This document shows, piece by piece, positions 27,541-37,966 of a stretch of DNA of 64,000 nt. This stretch comes from Arenicellales bacterium (GTDB lineage: Bacteria > Pseudomonadota > Gammaproteobacteria > Arenicellales > JAHEKD01), in contig JANQSD010000004.1 in NCBI GenBank assembly GCA_028284225.1, positions 202,869-266,868 on the forward strand, given 5' to 3'. A program made the translations under genes and the position numbers. Position 1 is the first letter of the stretch. Each line of letters opens with the position of its first letter. A model generated the notes under the pieces. The model searched no databases and was not told the DNA's origin. It saw only the letters and a program-made list of their open reading frames with translations.

Positions 27541-30500
27541 TTATGATTCTTGATAGTTAGTAATTTTCATTGAGCTTTCTAGCCGACTAATCAAGAAATC
27601 CGCATCCTCTTTAGACAAGACCATAGGCGGTTTGAATTTCAGCACATTCTCATAAGGCCCATCCGTTGAAAACAGCACACCGTTTTCTCTTAGGTCGTTG
27701 ACGATATCGCTGGCGAGTTCGGTGGCGGGTTCCAGGGTTTGTCTGTCTTTAACGAGTTCTAGCCCTAGGAAAAAGCCTCTGCCTCTAACATCACCTATTT
27801 CTTTATATTGTTGTTTTAATTCATTGAATTTATTCAACAAATAGTTTCCAGTATTTAATGCGTTTTGCATCAGGTTTTCGTTTTCAATGGCGTCCATTAC
27901 GGCCATACCGACTGCGGTTGAAACCGGATTACCGCCGAAGGAGTTGAAGTATTCCATGCCATTGGCGAATTTGCTGGCTAATTCTTGTGTGGTGACTACG
28001 GCTGCCAAGGGGTGACCGTTACCGATGGGTTTGCCCAGCACCACAATATCGGGGATGACATCTTGCAATTCGAACGCCCAAAAGTGGGAACCGACCCGCC
28101 CGAAACCACATTGAACTTCATCGGCTATACACAAACCCCCTTCGGCACGGACTGCCTGATAAGCCACTCTTAAGTAACCGTCCGGATATACTACCTGCCC
28201 ACCTACACCTGAAATCGATTCAGCGATGAAAGCTGCCGGACCATGGCCGGTTCGTTGTTTGATGTTGTCAACACATTCGGCTACGGATTGCGCATAGGCC
28301 TGCCCTGATGCTTCACTCATGCCTTTGTGAGGCCCACGATAGGGGTCTGGGAATTCCGCTATCTCGACGAATTCCGGCTTAGAAAAACCGCCTTTGCGCT
28401 TGAATTTATATGGACTGATATCAACAGTTGCTGCTGAATTACCATGGTAGCCCCAATCCAACACAATGGTGTCCTTTACTCCAGTTGCTGTTCTGGCAAT
28501 GCGTAGTGCCAGTTCATTAGCTTCCGTGCCTGAATTGACAAAGTACACAACAGATAACGGATCAGGCAAGGTCGCTGCTATACGTTCGGCAAAATCCAGG
28601 ATAGTTTTATGTAGATAACGCGTATTGGTATTTAATACTCTGGCCTGGGTTTCCAGTGCTTCGACCACATGCGGATGGCAATGCCCAACATGGCAAATAT
28701 TATTAACACAGTCCAGATATTGACGTCCTGTGTGGTCATATAAATAAGCGCCCTCACCCCGGACAATGTTTAATTTATTGCGATATGAAATGCTTAACGA
28801 TGGCCCCAGCAATCGCTGCCGGCGTTCAAGCAAATTGGATTCATCCGGCAACTCAAACGATTCGGGTGAAAGTTGAAAAATAAAATTCGGATCTGGGCAA
28901 ATTTCTGACCAGACCGGCCATAGCGATTTTTCACCGACGCCATTATATTCGGCCTTCAAACCCAACATATCAGTCATGACCTGAAAATGCAGGTGTGGCG
29001 CCCAGTTACCGTTAACTTCAAACTCACCGATGTGGCCGATCAGTTGCCCTGCTTTAACCTCTTGTCCTTCTTGCAAAAGTTCGAGAGCCGAACGTGATAA
29101 GTGGCCGTAAAGTGTATAAAACTTCGCACCATTATCACCGGCATCATGCTCCAGCATAATAGTTGGGCCAAAGCCTTGTGGGATGGCGTTATCATCCAGC
29201 GCATAAACTCTGCCCGGTAGTGGCGCATACAAGGCTGCTCCTGCATCGATGAATATATCCAGACCCAGGTGCATGGTGCGATGCTCAGGCGTGACCACAC
29301 TGGCAAATTGATCGGCAATATAAACATTACGATCCTCAGCATAGCGGCCGATCAGGTAAGCAATTGAATTAGCTTTATCCTCATCCGTCAGCAAGTCCTG
29401 GTAGTGTTCGACGCGTGAATTTTCAATAATATTATTTAGCGGCAAAACACGGCGTGGTGAGCGTTTCAAATCAACATCAAACATATTGACGGGTTGATTC
29501 TGTGACGAGGATAACCACTCAACAATCTGCTGATGGTTTTTGGTCGCCGAATAACCTGCTGCTTTGCGGAAAACCGCCGTCATAAATGCCGGGTTAATTT
29601 CCTGCATGCGCCAGAGCAGATCGAAAGCAGGTTTTTGTGAAATAAGTAAGTACTCGTTATTTTGATAATCTTTACTACGGTAGGATGAAATACAAACACT
29701 CATCACCAGGCGCAAACGAATTAAGTCAAATAGAACATCCAGCTCGTTTTCTTGCAACGGAAGATGCCGAACATATCCTTCAATTATTCGCTGGCCGGCA
29801 CCGTATAGATCACCCTCATCTTGTAGGGCATAAGCCATTGCCACGGCCAGTTCATTGATTTGTCGCCCATAGCACAGATCACCATAATCGATTAAACCTG
29901 TGACACGCTGGTTGTTCGACTCCACGATGATGTTATTGTCATTAGCATCCTGATGAACCACCGCACAGCGCAAATAATCCAGTCTGGGTAGAACATACTT
30001 CTCGTAACGTTCAAACAATTGCGCCAGTAACTGCCTGTTTTGTTCATCCTCTATGTGTTCAAGGTAAACCTTACATTCAATTGCATTATCCAAATTCCAG
30101 AGGAAATCGCCACGGTGTGCCGCAACATGCCCAAAACCCGATAATGATTTAGATAGCTTGCCCAAGTATTCACCCAGGCTTTGCAATAGCTGATCGGTTT
30201 TGTTTACTTCACTGTACAACTCGCCTTCCAAAAAACTGACCAGTCGAACACAATGTTGACCTTGATCGCTTTGAGCTTGCTGAATCGAATTGCCATCGAT
30301 ACCCTTGAGTACTTCAGGCACAAGGCCTTGCATCCCGGTTTTACTTAAATGTGACAATGCTTTGTTTTGCAAATCCAGTATTTGCGAATCTTCGGCGATA
30401 TTAGAAATTTTCAGCACATAACTATCATTTTCTGTAATTACTTTTATATTTTGATCTCGTTCGCTCACCAGGGCTTTTAACTCACCTTGCATTCCGTAAC

Positions 30501-30585
30501 CGTCTTGCAGAATTTTATTAATTTGTTCATTTGCTAGATTAGGCGGATCAGTCTGAAAAACTGAATCGGTAGCAGATTTATTCAT
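27541..30585 (-). CDS. APH-type kinase / M23 peptidase-fold / class III aminotransferase fusion
   Basis: A 1014-residue three-domain protein without a signal peptide. Residues about 30-330 are an aminoglycoside phosphotransferase-fold kinase with HQDANDNN (about 212) and [11 protein letters not shown]. Residues about 420-560 are an M23/LytM-like fold that keeps HLGLD (about 438) and HLHFQV (about 530), the zinc-site residues. Residues about 590-1005 are a PLP class III aminotransferase with [11 protein letters not shown] and lysine in VLGKPIGNG (about 852). Fused proteins of this layout occur in other proteobacteria. The kinase plus class III pair recalls hydroxylysine kinase with phosphohydroxylysine phospho-lyase, or the ethanolamine-phosphate equivalent, so a phosphorylate-then-eliminate route is a reasonable guess. 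The substrate is not known. Confidence 0.88.
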
Positions 30586-32446: not shown

Positions 32447-32550
32447 AGATACAGTCTATCAAAATTATAAATATTTAGCTGGATTACAACAAAATAATTA
32501 TCAATTAACATTGAATAATCAAATGCTAAATAACATCAGGAATGACCGTA

Positions 32551-34065
32551 ATGAGCCGAGCCAATCGTTCCAGGCGCGAATCTAGACAACGCGAAACCGT
32601 CAAAGCCCCTGCATATATTAAACGTAAGATTCCTTTTTACGAATTTTTAAACGAAGAAGGATTAGTCAAACTGGAGGAACAAGCTGACTGGCTAATGCAG
32701 GAAATCGGCATGGAATTCCGCGATGACCCAAAGGCGCTAGAAATTTGGAAGGCCGGTGGCGCAGAGGTAAACGGCACCCGAGTCAAGCTTGAAAAAGGTA
32801 TGGCTCGCGAACTGTGCAAAACGATCCCGAAAAAATTCACCCAATTAGCTCGTAATCCCAACAAGAGCGTTGAAATTGGTGGCACATCCCAGATTTTTGC
32901 ACCGGTTTACGGTCCCCCATTTGTTCGTGATTTGGAAGATGGCCGTCGTTACGGAACGATTAAGGACCATGAGAATCTAGTCAAGATTGCGTATAGTTTG
33001 CCCAGTTTACATCATACCGGGCTGGTCATCTGTGAGCCCTGCGATGTACCGGTTTCCAAACGTCATTTTGATATGGTGTACAACCACATGCGCTATAACG
33101 ACAAGCCCTTTCTGGGTGCGATCACAGAAAAATCACGCGCTCAGGATTCGGTAGATATGGCGCGAGTATTGTTTGGTGAAGATGTGATGAATAACAATTG
33201 TGTGATCATGGGTAATGTCAACACCAACTCACCGCTGCTGATCGACCGCGTTGTTACTGAAGCGGCTCAAGTGTATTGTGGCGCTAATCAGGGCTTAATT
33301 GTTGCACCGTTTATTCTGGGCGGTGCAATGGGCCCTGTCACCACAGCTGCCTCAATTGCACAGGCCCTGGCCGAAGCAATGATGGTAGGTGCATTTACTC
33401 AACTTGTCCGTCCAGGTGCCCCCTTTATTCTGGGCAACTTTTTATCTTCCATGAGCTTGAAGAGTGGCGCGCCGACTTTCGGGATGCCAGAACCGGTCAT
33501 GTCGAATTTAGTGATTGGCCAACTGGCCAGACGTCTGGGCGTACCGCTACGCTGTGGCGGCTCATTAACAGCGTCTAAATTACCTGATGCTCAAGCAGCG
33601 GCTGAAAGTGCCGACTCTATGCTGTCAACTGCCCTTGGCGGTGCCAACTTTGTCCTGCATGCCGCAGGATGGCTGGAAGGCGGCCTGGTCACCGGCTATG
33701 AAAAACTGGTTTTAGATGCTGATCGACTCGGCGCTTACCAGGTCATGCTTGCGGGCCTACCCATGGATGAAAATGCTATGGGCCGCTCTGCATACAGCGA
33801 AGTAGAACCCGCCGGACATTTCCTCGGTTGCAGTCATACCATGGGCAATTACCAAACAGCTTTTTACGATGCCAAGCTTTCTGATAGTGAGAGCTGTGAA
33901 CAATGGGAAGAGAACGGCTCTAAAGATTCAGCCAGACGCGCCTATGAACGCTGGAACCAAATTCTTGATGAATATGAATTGCCGCCCATGGATGATGCTA
34001 AAGACGAAGAGTTAAAAGAATACATTGCCAAACGTAAAGCCGAAATACCCGATGCCTGGTATTAA
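32551..34065 (+). CDS. MttB-superfamily (trimethylamine methyltransferase family) protein, non-pyrrolysine
   Basis: Predicted corrinoid-dependent methyltransferase of the COG5598 family, acting on a quaternary amine such as glycine betaine or a relative. The TIM-barrel family blocks are visible: VYGPPFVRDLEDGRRYGT, MGNVNTNSPLLIDRV, PFILGGAMGPVTTAASIAQA and LGGANFVLHAAGWLEGGL. The frame is open throughout, so there is no amber-coded pyrrolysine, like MtgB. I choose ATG 32551: the AGGA is nine bases upstream of it but abuts the ATG at 32542. No corrinoid protein gene is in the window, so the methyl acceptor is unseen. Confidence 0.88.
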   Translation: MSRANRSRRESRQRETVKAPAYIKRKIPFYEFLNEEGLVKLEEQADWLMQEIGMEFRDDPKALEIWKAGGAEVNGTRVKLEKGMARELCKTIPKKFTQLARNPNKSVEIGGTSQIFAPVYGPPFVRDLEDGRRYGTIKDHENLVKIAYSLPSLHHTGLVICEPCDVPVSKRHFDMVYNHMRYNDKPFLGAITEKSRAQDSVDMARVLFGEDVMNNNCVIMGNVNTNSPLLIDRVVTEAAQVYCGANQGLIVAPFILGGAMGPVTTAASIAQALAEAMMVGAFTQLVRPGAPFILGNFLSSMSLKSGAPTFGMPEPVMSNLVIGQLARRLGVPLRCGGSLTASKLPDAQAAAESADSMLSTALGGANFVLHAAGWLEGGLVTGYEKLVLDADRLGAYQVMLAGLPMDENAMGRSAYSEVEPAGHFLGCSHTMGNYQTAFYDAKLSDSESCEQWEENGSKDSARRAYERWNQILDEYELPPMDDAKDEELKEYIAKRKAEIPDAWY

Positions 34066-34082
34066 AACCTGTTGAAATTCAG

Positions 34083-34994
34083 CTACTTATCATCCATTTG
34101 ATGGATAGACTTAAGCCGGTAATCGAGTTTGCCTGGAGTATAACCTAAAGCATCCGCCGCTTTTGAAATTTTCCCCCCGTTCTTCTTCATTGCCTCTTCA
34201 ATATATAATTTTTCAAGTCTCAACAATTGATCTTGTAAATTTATTTTTTCTTCCCCAGCATATAAAAAGAAAAACAAATTATTCTTTCGACTCCAAGAAA
34301 GCGTCCCGGGAATTAAGATTGAAAAATCAAAAATTTTATTATTAGAGCAAGCATATATGCAACCTGCCAAAAATATAGTTGTTGTAATCGGAACAATAAC
34401 CACTGCATTAACTTTTACACCAAGCGCCATCAGAAAGATCACAGTTAAGACTGATATCAAAAGAGGCAACATGGAGATTAATATGATAGAGGAGCGCGCT
34501 CTTATAATGTTATCTTTTTCACTATAGCTAAATGTTTTTTTACATATTATATAAATACATGTAATCAATTCTATTATCGAAAACATCTGAAACAAAAAAT
34601 AGAATTCCCCTGGTATCCTGGTAATCGTAGAATGAAGCATCTTACTATCAGCAATGATAAAATCGGTAAAAACTATCAAAACACTAATAACAATACCAAA
34701 GCTATGAAGCAAATTAACTGCCACAATATTTACTTTAGTTACGACCAACACAAGAACCGTTAATAAAATAAGCGAAAGTATAGCTAAAACATAATAAATT
34801 TTGAGCATCGCCAGATTTTGGCCTATTTGTGTGAATGTCAAAAACTCAGCAAAATTCAGCAAACAGAGTAGAGTGACCAAAATAATTAACAACTGTTTAA
34901 AGTCATTTTTTTGTTTTATTGCGACAAAAAACAAAAAATAGCATTTTATTAACAATGCTATAAATGACGGAATTGCTATTAAACTTGGTTGCAA
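34083..34994 (-). CDS. Seven-helix membrane protein with C-terminal Fis-type HTH (paralog B)
   Basis: 303 residues: seven hydrophobic helices over residues 1-230, then a cytoplasmic tail ending in a Fis/NtrC-type helix-turn-helix (LEKLYIEEAMKKNGG, ISKAADALGYTPGKLDYRL). The helix pattern and the block NAVVIVPITTTIFLAGCIYA resemble the 7TM input domain of some sensor histidine kinases, but no kinase domain follows. TRIPGEFYFLFQ in the fourth loop is shared with the paralog at 36354. It begins with TTG 34994, with GGGA six bases upstream, 13 nt after the KAS III-like gene. Likely a membrane-bound one-component regulator; ligand unknown. The DNA is very AT-rich. Confidence 0.7.
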   Translation of the reverse strand: MQPSLIAIPSFIALLIKCYFLFFVAIKQKNDFKQLLIILVTLLCLLNFAEFLTFTQIGQNLAMLKIYYVLAILSLILLTVLVLVVTKVNIVAVNLLHSFGIVISVLIVFTDFIIADSKMLHSTITRIPGEFYFLFQMFSIIELITCIYIICKKTFSYSEKDNIIRARSSIILISMLPLLISVLTVIFLMALGVKVNAVVIVPITTTIFLAGCIYACSNNKIFDFSILIPGTLSWSRKNNLFFFLYAGEEKINLQDQLLRLEKLYIEEAMKKNGGKISKAADALGYTPGKLDYRLKSIHQMDDK

Positions 34995-35007
34995 CTATTT
35001 TCCCGAT

Positions 35008-36012
35008 TTAATTTATCTGTAAAGACAATGCGATTTGAGATATCGACAATCCACTGCCGGCACCCATCAATAAAATATTCATTGATTTTATATTACTTAA
35101 ATTTAATGTTCTAGTAATATTTACAGGCATAGTTGCTGAAGCAATATTTCCAAGCTGCGGAAAAGTCTTTGACATTTTACTCATCTCAACACTTGTCATT
35201 TTTGAAAACCTCTGGTGCGGACGCTTACCAACCTGATGAGTTATTAAATAATCGGGCTTATTCCAATTTAATTTTTTTAGCGTTTTTTTCAAAAGCTTTT
35301 TATGTTGCATTAACATTTTTGCACATATTTTATCCATAATCATCTGACCGGAAAACTGATTATCTGGAAAATGATAGTGACAAAGTTCATAACTAGAGCT
35401 ATCAGATTGCATTTGAAAGTCAACGAATTTGAATCGATGTATTGCTGGGTATGATGTTATGAGCATCGCTCCTGCAGCATCACCAATAGTCAGAGCACCA
35501 AACATTGTCTGGAATTTACTATGATCATGATTGATGGAGTTTATTGCTAGTTTAGTTATGTTTGATGAAATCTCAGCAGTAACTAACAATACAGTATTAA
35601 GACCTCTTTTAATAAATGAATCCGCAACAAACATTCCATCAGAAAACCCATGGCAGGCGTTAGTAATGTCGAAACAAAAGCCGTTGCTACCAATATTTGT
35701 TTGCACTACATGGGCTGTACCTGGCTCAAGATAATCCCGCTCAATACCACAATAAATGACGCAATCTATATCCTTTACATCAATATTGTTTTCGCATAAT
35801 AATTTTTCTGCAGCTTTTGATGCAATATATGAATGCCTATTTTCATTTGAATTCACGAATCTTCGTTCAAGAATTCCCATTCTTTCATTAATAAAGGTTC
35901 TTGAAACTCCAAAATTGGCTTCGGATTTCAGCTCATCCATCAAATCTTCAGATTTGACTATCTCAGTTGGAATAAATGAGCTTGCTGCATAAATATATGA
36001 ATTAATTGACAT
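35008..36012 (-). CDS. KAS III-like beta-ketoacyl-ACP synthase family enzyme
   Basis: Thiolase-fold condensing enzyme of the FabH/PqsD type, 334 aa. The catalytic triad is visible: Cys in DITNACHGFSDGM, His in LITHQVGKRPHQRF, and Asn in LGNIASATMPVNI. The N-terminal KSEDL and GILERRFVN blocks and the C-terminal LLMGAGSGLSISQIAL fit. I start at ATG 36012, with AGAGG seven bases upstream; an upstream in-frame reading adds 16 unsupported residues. It is not beside fatty-acid genes but between two paralogous membrane regulators, so a specialised product (signal or lipid) is more likely than housekeeping FabH. The product is unknown. Confidence 0.82.
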   Translation of the reverse strand: MSINSYIYAASSFIPTEIVKSEDLMDELKSEANFGVSRTFINERMGILERRFVNSNENRHSYIASKAAEKLLCENNIDVKDIDCVIYCGIERDYLEPGTAHVVQTNIGSNGFCFDITNACHGFSDGMFVADSFIKRGLNTVLLVTAEISSNITKLAINSINHDHSKFQTMFGALTIGDAAGAMLITSYPAIHRFKFVDFQMQSDSSSYELCHYHFPDNQFSGQMIMDKICAKMLMQHKKLLKKTLKKLNWNKPDYLITHQVGKRPHQRFSKMTSVEMSKMSKTFPQLGNIASATMPVNITRTLNLSNIKSMNILLMGAGSGLSISQIALSLQIN

Positions 36013-36109
36013 TTTATAAGCCTCTGATTTCAAAATTAAATTTCTGTAATCGGAAACCATATCAAAAAATATTTTTATTGCATCTGAAATTAGATGCCTT
36101 ATGGTCGCT

Positions 36110-36197
36110 ATCGAGTGTAGTAAAACAACTTGGGGTGGGTGTTATACACCCTTTGTGGGTACGCAGGTAGGTGAGACAATGCGTACCCACTTTTTTA
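36110..36197 (+). ncRNA. Candidate small RNA with two hairpins and a terminator
   Basis: In the 340-bp gap upstream of the KAS III-like gene, the plus strand has a GGGTGT-TAT-ACACCC hairpin (36137-36151). A perfect 10-bp stem GTGGGTACGC-N16-GCGTACCCAC (36155-36190) follows, then TTTTTT. The T-run is only on the plus strand, and no plus-strand gene ends here, so the terminator may belong to a short transcript. TTGCAT-N16-TATGGT near 36079-36106 is a weak promoter candidate. The 5' end is a guess. Confidence 0.4.
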
Positions 36198-36353
36198 ACA
36201 AACATAGATTACAAATTATTGCGAACCCGATAATCAGAATCAGGCCATCAAGAATTAGTACATCCCAAGATTAATCAGGATCAATTAATATTTATCTTTA
36301 AAATTAGGCGTAATAAATCTATCACAAATAGTGCAAACTTAAGCTGGAATTAG

Positions 36354-37259
36354 CTACTTGTCATTTAATTGATGGATGGATTTAAGTCGGTAATCGAGTT
36401 TTCCGGGTGTAATACCTAACGATCTAGCGGCATTTGTTAACTGTCCTTTACCTAAGTTTTCTTTCATTGCTTCTTCTATATATATCCTTTCAAGTGCTTT
36501 TAGTCGTTTCCATACTTCAGATTTATCATTGCTAGAATAAAGAAAAAAAACCAAATCCTTTTTAGCTTGCCACGAGGGAGAAAAAGGCATGAATATAGAA
36601 CAATCAAGAGTTTTTTTGCTATCTATCGCATAGAAGCAGCCAAATAAAAATATCGTGGTTGTTATCGGCAGTAAAACAGCCGCGTTAACATTTTTACCCA
36701 ACGCCATTAACAGCAGAACGATTAATAAACCTAATACTAACGGGAACAATGAAACCAATAATACAGCTGCTTTTGCCCTTAGATTTGAACGTTTTTTCCT
36801 GTCATAGACAACCTTTACAGCAAAGTAAATCGTCAAAATCAAGCACACTAAAACATAAAATTGAAAGATATAATAATGATCTCCTGGAATACGAGTGTAG
36901 CCAATCCCGCCCTCCTTAAATCCAGCGACTATTAAATCAGTGCTGAACAACATGCTTGATTGTATAATACCGAGTATTAACATCACCTCTGGCAATTTGG
37001 TATCTAGTTTTGATAATGACTTGATAACAACAAGAATCATCGCTAATGCTAGTATCAGAAAGACATAAAAAAACTTAAAACCCACAATGGAGTGCAATAA
37101 CCCAGATAAAGCCATAAACTCAAGCAGACTCAAAGCGAACAACAAGGCCAAAAGCCAAATAAATGCCGTGCCGACCTTATTTTTATTGACTATTAATTTG
37201 ACAGTCAAAACTATTTTTAAAATGAGGGCTGCTAGAGAAAAAATACTATAAGTGGACAT
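36354..37259 (-). CDS. Seven-helix membrane protein with C-terminal Fis-type HTH (paralog A)
   Basis: 301 residues with the same layout as the protein at 34083: seven helices (about residues 7-23, 29-50, 62-83, 90-112, 130-150, 163-190, 193-215) and a C-terminal Fis-type HTH (ALERIYIEEAMKENLG, TNAARSLGITPGKLDYRLK). Both share TRIPGDHYYIFQ-type loops, NAAVLLPITTTIFLFGC and the last residues KLDYRLKSIHQ. The HTH of this copy has a two-residue insertion before the first recognition helices. It lies upstream of the KAS III-like gene, separated by a gap of 341 bp. Probably a membrane-bound regulator; function not recognised. Confidence 0.7.
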   Translation of the reverse strand: MSTYSIFSLAALILKIVLTVKLIVNKNKVGTAFIWLLALLFALSLLEFMALSGLLHSIVGFKFFYVFLILALAMILVVIKSLSKLDTKLPEVMLILGIIQSSMLFSTDLIVAGFKEGGIGYTRIPGDHYYIFQFYVLVCLILTIYFAVKVVYDRKKRSNLRAKAAVLLVSLFPLVLGLLIVLLLMALGKNVNAAVLLPITTTIFLFGCFYAIDSKKTLDCSIFMPFSPSWQAKKDLVFFLYSSNDKSEVWKRLKALERIYIEEAMKENLGKGQLTNAARSLGITPGKLDYRLKSIHQLNDK

Positions 37260-37408
37260 TTTTGATTATCTTTTTGAGGTTAATATCTTCTCAAGCTGAT
37301 TTGTTGTAGGGCAATCCAGTTACCGTTATGAATATAAGACAATTTCATAATTATTTAATATCATATTTGTGTAGAAAATTGTAAATATTAACAAGAATTG
37401 CAACCGAC

Positions 37409-37660
37409 CTAGTGTTCTTTTTCCGACAAAGCTAACTGCATAGCCTCAATAGAATGGTAAGCATGTCTCTTTTTTACTGAAATCATTTCGTCTTCATGTT
37501 CAGCCGTTAAGTCTGGCAACAAACCACCTCGGCCTGTATGTACGGAGATAACTTTTACTCTCAGTTCACCATTTGTATCTTCTTTTATTATTTCTGCTTT
37601 AATAAAAGTATCCTGAAAAATTGTGAATTCTGGTTTTGGTATGTACACTATTTCGGACAT
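37409..37660 (-). CDS. Small hypothetical protein
   Basis: 83 residues, soluble and acidic at the C-terminus (LALSEKEH), with no motif I recognise. It starts MSEIVYIPKPEFTIFQD. It begins three bases after the stop of the lipoprotein gene upstream, and so is the third gene of a queF-lipoprotein-unknown run. Translation coupling and clean spacing support it being real. Confidence 0.6.
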   Translation of the reverse strand: MSEIVYIPKPEFTIFQDTFIKAEIIKEDTNGELRVKVISVHTGRGGLLPDLTAEHEDEMISVKKRHAYHSIEAMQLALSEKEH

Positions 37661-37663
37661 TAA

Positions 37664-37966
37664 TTACAAACCGATTAGTTGTTGATGAATTTGGTGACAC
37701 CATTCGATGTCTCCGATTTCGGTAGAAGTATTTTTAGCTACAGAATATTTTTCATCCAGGGCAGCAAGCCATTGAGGAGAGCCAGGAGGTGGACGACCCG
37801 TATCGTGATTAACCAGATTAACTTCGCGTTCAATTTCCACAAACCAATCGCTACTGCAAGGCTCTGGAAATTCGTCCTTGTAAGGTTTAGTTCCAATACT
37901 ATTACAACCTGCTAAGCTTAACGCAGATAAAAAAACAGTTACAACTGAATAACGCCTTGGCAGCAT
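37664..37966 (-). CDS. Small putative lipoprotein
   Basis: 100 residues with a lipoprotein signal (VFLSALSLAGC, Cys21) and a mature part with Cys, Trp and charged residues (EPCSSDWFVEIEREV, GDIEWCHQIHQQLIGL). No family recognised. It starts three bases after the queF stop, so it is probably co-transcribed, though no functional link to queuosine is evident. Confidence 0.65.
   Translation of the reverse strand: MLPRRYSVVTVFLSALSLAGCNSIGTKPYKDEFPEPCSSDWFVEIEREVNLVNHDTGRPPPGSPQWLAALDEKYSVAKNTSTEIGDIEWCHQIHQQLIGL

Follow-up and report, generated by a model that had tools for sequence, protein, structure and literature searches.

In the photopyrone signalling system of Photorhabdus (PpyS/PluR), a Glu-Cys-His-Asn ketosynthase is described as making the signal from two acyl chains (PMC4578411), and the CqsA/CqsS and LqsA/LqsS systems are described as coupling a synthase to a receptor in the membrane that detects a lipophilic signal of the ketone type (PMC3285556). 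BtsS, a bacterial seven-transmembrane (7TM) sensor with a periplasmic N-terminus, is reported to bind its small ligand within the membrane domain (PMC10653868). A 2026 quorum-sensing review names, as receptors, transcription factors of the cytoplasm, sensor kinases in the membrane and phosphorelays (PMC13220807). The present study characterised a locus with likenesses to these systems in a 64,000-nucleotide stretch of DNA (the window) from the 4.09 Mb genome of a marine Arenicellales bacterium (GCA_028284225.1, contig JANQSD010000004.1, positions 202,869 to 266,868). On its minus strand, a ketosynthase gene, K, stands between two genes, B and A, for 7TM receptors ending in a helix-turn-helix (HTH) domain, in the order B, K, A. 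K has the four active-site residues of PpyS; as in the CqsA and LqsA systems, a putative synthase accompanies a membrane receptor; and the receptors, like BtsS, are predicted to be 7TM sensors with an outward N-terminus that would take up a small ligand within the membrane.

The analysis was computational and covered the trio, its domains and catalytic residues, the pairing of enzyme and receptor, repeated receptor duplication, the modelled topology and a clade-conserved palindrome. In relatives, enzyme and receptor stay next to each other, and this speaks for a bacterial signalling circuit of a kind not described before. We consider it fairly probable that B-K-A is a self-contained synthase-receptor circuit with a membrane one-component receptor, and the circuit is probably quorum-sensing-like. 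An earlier note on this DNA, made from the letters alone, had proposed such a circuit, with a relative of 3-oxoacyl-acyl carrier protein (ACP) synthase III (KAS III) as likely signal maker; comparative evidence favours the proposal, of which the chemistry, the ligand and the DNA binding are parts that we infer.

The gene trio and its products

The layout described in the earlier note, namely two paralogous 7TM proteins with a Fis/NtrC-type HTH around a KAS III-like enzyme in AT-rich DNA, stands: the locus holds co-directional open reading frames of 303 (A), 350 (K) and 301 (B) amino acids (aa), and the G+C content of the three genes is 0.32-0.35 vs 0.431 in the window. For K, the internal ATG at 36012, giving 334 aa, was chosen because a ribosome site (AGAGG) precedes it by 8 nt, whereas the alternative ATG at 36060 has none, both as read from the sequence. 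A begins with a TTG codon, 13 nt past the stop of K.

K contains a KAS III-type domain above the cut-off and, as had been noticed, an intact triad (Cys120, His259 and Asn289 in the 334-aa numbering). Its earlier naming as a KAS III homologue holds at the level of this superfamily triad but not for the class, as K additionally carries Glu96, the invariant Glu of the EPxTA motif, with which the catalytic Glu of OleA coincides in a profile alignment. Over 73 K proteins, the Glu is conserved in 72, the Cys in all 73, the His in 67 of 68 aligned and the Asn in 66 of 66 aligned, proteins with a gap at the last two sites having truncated, short or frameshifted frames. At the Glu site, the genome's own housekeeping FabH carries Phe. 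Both by single sequence and by profile, the best PDB matches of K were 3row and 3s21, titled 3-oxoacyl-ACP synthase III, which we take to be OleA; the aligned OleA residue is Glu117 by counting, with the catalytic Cys129 of the chain taken as Cys143. In OleA and PpyS, this Glu (E117 and E105, respectively) is described as reaching into the partner active site and deprotonating the bound acyl chain as a base, and mutation of the equivalent Glu in PpyS is reported to have abolished the product (PMC4578411). Since the Glu is present besides Cys-His-Asn, K is placed by sequence with the OleA/PpyS-type ketosynthases rather than plain KAS III, and it probably makes a fatty signal molecule. The assignment is to the enzyme class, not to the olefin pathway: no ole-operon context was found around K, where no neighbour family is conserved beyond single clades, and no genome-wide ole search was made.

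In both receptors, HTH_8 was the only Pfam family above its cut-off (34.2 bits in A and 23.3 bits in B, against 22 bits); the earlier note had conceded that this HTH might be a coincidental helix, and it proved to be a Pfam-recognised and confidently modelled domain. Alignment recovers the TRIPG(D/E)xYxxFQ and PITTTIFL blocks reported there in both proteins, which share 36% identity (76/212) in the membrane part and 65% (33/51) in the HTH, with an identical recognition stretch, TPGKLDYRLKSIHQ. As had been stated, the receptors lack a kinase: Pfam revealed no HisKA or HATPase domain in A, in B or in a tally of 73 receptors. Neither a LuxI synthase nor a LuxR autoinducer-binding domain was found, KAS III and HTH_8 being the only domains of the trio above cut-off. 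The 73 receptors (set A3) were A, B and 71 of 74 receptor frames, the truncated L088, L150:1072 and L152:5994 being excluded; 61 of them match HTH_8 at E<=0.01. At the same threshold, 24 match HisKA_7TM (PF16927), and the L038 receptor scores 31.0 bits (cut-off 28.6); the suggested likeness of the 7TM part to histidine kinase input domains is seen in some relatives, and A and B gave no match at E<=1.

Most receptors are short (57 below 400 aa, 5 at 400-700 and 11 above 700). In two of the long ones, the C-terminus is preceded by a weak match to the sigma-54 AAA family that stays under the cut-off of 25 bits (15.5 and 18.9 bits). The short form may accordingly be a reduced relative of NtrC-like proteins. 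Five receptors of about 860-890 aa (L067, L068, L069, L070 and L085) combine the 7TM part with a long middle region, the weak sigma-54 AAA match occurring in two of those scanned, and three of the five (L068, L069 and L085) have no K in the region fetched.

AlphaFold2 modelled A with a mean predicted local distance difference test score (pLDDT) of 90.7, placing membrane helices at residues 8-27, 33-54, 61-86, 91-109, 132-154, 159-190 and 200-216, a beta hairpin at 114-128 and the HTH helices at 253-302; the loop charges are consistent with an outward N-terminus and an inward C-terminus. The receptor of L149, from a deep SAR86-like branch of the receptor tree, was modelled at a mean pLDDT of 85.0 and is alike in its seven long helices, the beta hairpin between the fourth and fifth transmembrane helices (TM4 and TM5) and the trihelical HTH. 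In structure searches, G protein-coupled receptors (GPCRs) were listed for A (Foldseek E 5e-3 at best; VIA Z 18.4, root-mean-square deviation (rmsd) 3.3 over 209 aa), while L149 reached a Foldseek E of 1.4e-4 and, to a designed GPCR-like fold, a VIA Z of 19.1 (rmsd 3.0 over 204 aa), the next row being a natural GPCR (FSH receptor) at Z 18.7, against a VIA background of about 14 for helical bundles. Cryorhodopsin was among the Foldseek matches for A; no microbial rhodopsin appeared in the 50 VIA rows listed for A and L149, an absence that is uninformative, no controlled ranking against GPCRs having been made. Because of this, and because a predictor trained on many GPCRs may favour their fold, the modelled bundles of A and L149 are said to resemble GPCRs, which is a statement of resemblance and not of homology. 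Class A GPCRs are marked by the DRY and NPxxY motifs. Both are absent from A and B as read from the alignment, and the two proteins are not filed as GPCRs.

Conservation of the ketosynthase-receptor pair

A K-profile scan of named genomes yielded 72 loci, with a receptor within 1.5 kb at 65 and directly downstream on the same strand at 63 (median gap 67 bp). The K profile was built from loci found via receptors, a bias of which the receptor-first counts are free: that search matched 30 of 145 relatives, with a K frame inside the 1.5-kb flanks at 24 of the 30 best loci (counting one remnant of 96 aa), and when genomes were drawn evenly across the class, K adjoined 12 of 14 receptors. The recurrence in other genomes on which the earlier note had staked its proposal was thus found from both sides. 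Relatives keep the pair, which is conserved in Gammaproteobacteria and is more than a chance arrangement. The receptor family itself is rare and patchy, occurring in 8 of 369 genomes of the class draw and in 1 of 398 of the phylum draw, the window's own; these counts rest on a profile of the 7TM part (A4), as with the full-length profile (A1) NtrC-type HTH matches drowned out the rest (291/369 genomes). A plasmid search returned generic KAS III only (133 records) and no receptor.

Distances in the K and receptor trees correlate over 61 pairs with r 0.89, none of 2000 permutations exceeding 0.14, and nearest neighbours in the two trees coincide for 30 of these; 61 of 62 pairs were used, with L088 (cut-off receptor) and loci with a K frame of <=290 aa excluded. 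In six Arenicella-type genomes with two analysed pairs, the closest relatives of each pair sit in other genomes in both trees, and the pairing therefore predates the duplication. The three Marinomonas pairs arose by recent duplication, and in one genome the picture is mixed. That the neighbourhood is due to chance or hitchhiking, with no functional link, is highly improbable: the entire surrounding region is syntenic in the Pseudohongiella-type clade, as hitchhiking would predict, but in other lineages the same pair stands amid different neighbours, and its genes overlap or are closely spaced. Neighbour clustering over the 72 K loci found that widely shared families belong to single syntenic clades, with no other family spanning lineages and no general tailoring enzyme. 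The Pseudohongiella-type block (L087-L105) holds, by eye, PspF-like AAA, PspA-like, PspC-like, nudix-like and purL-like genes.

Besides the window, a co-directional receptor-K-receptor order was found at L123, L131, L143 and L152, and a divergent upstream receptor at L146, L147, L148 and L150. The duplicated pair suspected in the window is monophyletic in the receptor tree (support 0.957, with the sister-species orthologue L002 inside), as are those of L131 (0.81) and L143 (0.789); the supports are FastTree values, two of them modest. The upstream receptors of L123 and L152 and those of SAR86-like loci form separate older clades, and by this tree the two-receptor arrangement therefore arose at least four times.

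Some loci depart from the usual arrangement. At L084 (G053 C32:247000-265000), an intact receptor adjoins the 96-aa K remnant, so that the synthase has decayed and the receptor has been kept. In the sister species, L082 (G001 C419:1-5410) has an MttB gene beside the A orthologue and neither K nor B on the 5.4-kb contig, being either an orphan receptor or a loss. At L071/L043 (G401 C26), a highly divergent KAS III-like frame overlaps a 354-aa 7TM frame without a Pfam HTH and is maybe an outlying branch of the same pairing.

Candidate operators and the proposed circuit

The Pseudohongiella-type clade (15 loci: L087-L092, L094-L100, L104, L105) carries a palindrome, TGTAGGA-N5-TCCTACA, upstream of K. 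With at most one mismatch and within 400 bp upstream of K, it was found at 12 of the 72 loci, which are 11 of these 15 and L149; six loci carry poorer matches, with 2-3 mismatches, between K and the receptor gene, and the right half, TCCTACA, lies upstream of K at six of seven SAR86-like loci. Across 16 whole genomes (~60 Mb), 12 of the 18 sites with <=1 mismatch lie upstream of K. The geometry is similar to that of the NtrC site, TGCACC-N5-GGTGCA. Additional sites in L171-L175 precede no common gene, and aligning the upstream regions within the Arenicella, Marinomonas and other subclades brought out no palindrome that was clearly shared. In the window, a dyad, GCATCT-N6-AGATGC, lies 68-85 bp before K and is the sole perfect copy in that genome (G000); a similar one with one mismatch stands upstream of the A orthologue in the sister genome (G001, C419:4194-4212).

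The circuit that we favour would run as follows. With its conserved Glu-Cys-His-Asn residues, K would join two acyl thioesters head to head into a lipophilic beta-keto acid, ketone or pyrone, which would partition into membranes and sit in the GPCR-like 7TM pocket, modelled beneath the periplasmic TM4-TM5 hairpin. Ligand binding would alter the state of the cytoplasmic Fis/NtrC-type HTH, which, given the architecture, could act on DNA with neither kinase nor response regulator. By binding the inverted repeat that relatives conserve upstream of K, and often also of the receptor gene, the HTH would give quorum-sensing-like feedback. In the window, where the receptor is duplicated, A and B share the recognition helix and have diverged in their sensor parts; they would probably read one operator, either at different ligand thresholds or joined as a heterodimer.

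Several points weigh against this circuit. The head-to-head product, its role as ligand, its binding in the membrane, the direct control of genes, whether feedback is positive or negative, and signalling between cells are all points that we infer, and genome linkage by itself yields co-inheritance of K and receptor. The palindrome was derived from the same sequences in which it was counted, though the receptor of L149 falls in a clade far from the others; that the receptor HTH reads the palindrome is presumptive, and in the Pseudohongiella-type clade a PspF-like protein is encoded near K. The window's dyad, shared by two species, is a weak lead and not an established operator. The six genomic palindrome sites away from K, at <=1 mismatch, are at background level (14 for the reversed control), so that no regulon beyond K was found. 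At six of the 30 receptor loci K is missing from the 1.5-kb flanks, and the orthologue of A in the sister species is one of these. Among the seven K loci without a receptor, four end <500 bp from K and one has K split over two frames; the two true exceptions, L103 and L156, show no detected receptor despite ~5 kb downstream, the K of L156 being degenerate.

The same pairing, a site suggestive of autoregulation and the lack of a wide regulon under the strict motif would also be seen if K supplied a lipid, ketone or antibiotic to its own cell, with the 7TM-HTH protein monitoring its level or the state of the membrane and no communication between cells; OleA is indeed described as yielding hydrocarbon precursors (PMC4578411). 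Such private, feedback-controlled synthesis is a minority possibility in our view, as tailoring enzymes (an ole operon, for instance) are not among the conserved neighbours of K, and several diverged pairs per genome together with repeated receptor duplication resemble signal-receptor diversification more. Less probable still, and rather doubtful, is that the receptors sense an exogenous lipophile or envelope stress, with K merely a regulated target: the receptors lacking a nearby K and the psp-like neighbours in one clade would suit it, but receptor and K stay together across the paralogue families of the six Arenicella-type genomes, and duplicate receptors repeatedly flank K.

Features of the locus, with positions in the window
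Feature	Position	Strand	Basis
Receptor A, 303-aa 7TM protein with C-terminal Fis/NtrC-type HTH	34083..34994	-	Open reading frame; HTH_8 34.2 bits; AlphaFold2 pLDDT 90.7; sister-species orthologue L002
HTH of receptor A (residues 253-303)	34086..34238	-	HTH_8 profile; AlphaFold2 model; 65% identity to HTH of B
7TM sensor part of A (residues 8-216), GPCR-like modelled fold	34347..34973	-	AlphaFold2; Foldseek; VIA
K, 334-aa OleA/PpyS-like ketosynthase, Cys120-His259-Asn289 and catalytic-type Glu96	35008..36012	-	Open reading frame; profile, PDB and residue comparisons; ribosome site
Receptor B, 301-aa 7TM protein with C-terminal Fis/NtrC-type HTH	36354..37259	-	Open reading frame; HTH_8 23.3 bits; alignment with A
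HTH of receptor B	36357..36512	-	HTH_8 profile; alignment with A
Dyad GCATCT-N6-AGATGC, candidate operator (weak, two species)	36079..36097	.	Similar element in sister genome G001
Terminator-like 10-bp perfect inverted repeat with 16-nt loop, then T6, in the B-K gap	36155-36190 (to 36196 with the T6)	+	Unique in genome

The terminator-like repeat runs antisense to the trio and is possibly the end of an antisense transcript; the terminator scan, with a loop limit of 8, had passed over it. An Rfam search of 33900-37700 gave no match, and a promoter scan stayed at shuffle level (14 vs 17.5 in shuffled sequence). Beside the trio, the plus strand encodes an MttB-family methyltransferase (32542-34065; PF06253, 718 bits), which scores under the NCBIfam cut-off for the trimethylamine enzyme and adjoins a LysR gene. 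Further away, a 1014-aa frame on the minus strand (27541-30585) appears by eye to be a fusion of a phosphotransferase, an M23 peptidase and a class III aminotransferase.

Comparison with described signalling systems

A search of open PMC papers, with subscription papers and preprints outside its scope, found no description of K combined with a 7TM-HTH receptor. The parts are known (the enzyme from PpyS/PluR, the logic of synthase and membrane receptor from CqsA/CqsS, the sensor from HisKA_7TM), and the combination is undescribed in the literature searched. Whether the locus represents an undescribed signalling class, with an OleA/PpyS-type autoinducer synthase, an in-membrane GPCR-fold receptor with a transcription-factor tail and duplication giving two readers per signal, appears to us evenly balanced. 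If it does, receptor and transcription factor would be one membrane protein, partnered by the likely maker of its signal; this would be a further class of receptor and probably also a further class of signal, and a GPCR-like bundle wired straight to DNA would offer a compact model and a biosensor chassis. The system spans uncultured marine lineages and at least two named isolate records (Marinomonas transparens C1424 and Exilibacterium tricleocarpae R142), and the predicted operator makes the circuit idea directly testable.

OleA of Xanthomonas is the best structural relative of K, with the catalytic Glu aligned, but it feeds olefin synthesis, whereas no ole-type partner is conserved around K. 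PpyS is paired with PluR, which is LuxR-like, whereas the receptor here is a 7TM membrane protein with a Fis-type HTH. CqsA/LqsA-type synthases depend on pyridoxal phosphate and belong to another family than K, and CqsS is a histidine kinase, whereas no kinase is present here. BtsS likewise differs in being a LytS-type histidine kinase with a separate response regulator, and HisKA_7TM is a Pfam family named for histidine kinases, whereas the 7TM part here is fused to an HTH. ToxR and CadC are membrane one-component regulators with other sensor types and no paired signal synthase; the locus shares with them a membrane-tethered DNA-binding domain, but its sensor is a 7TM bundle of modelled GPCR-like fold.

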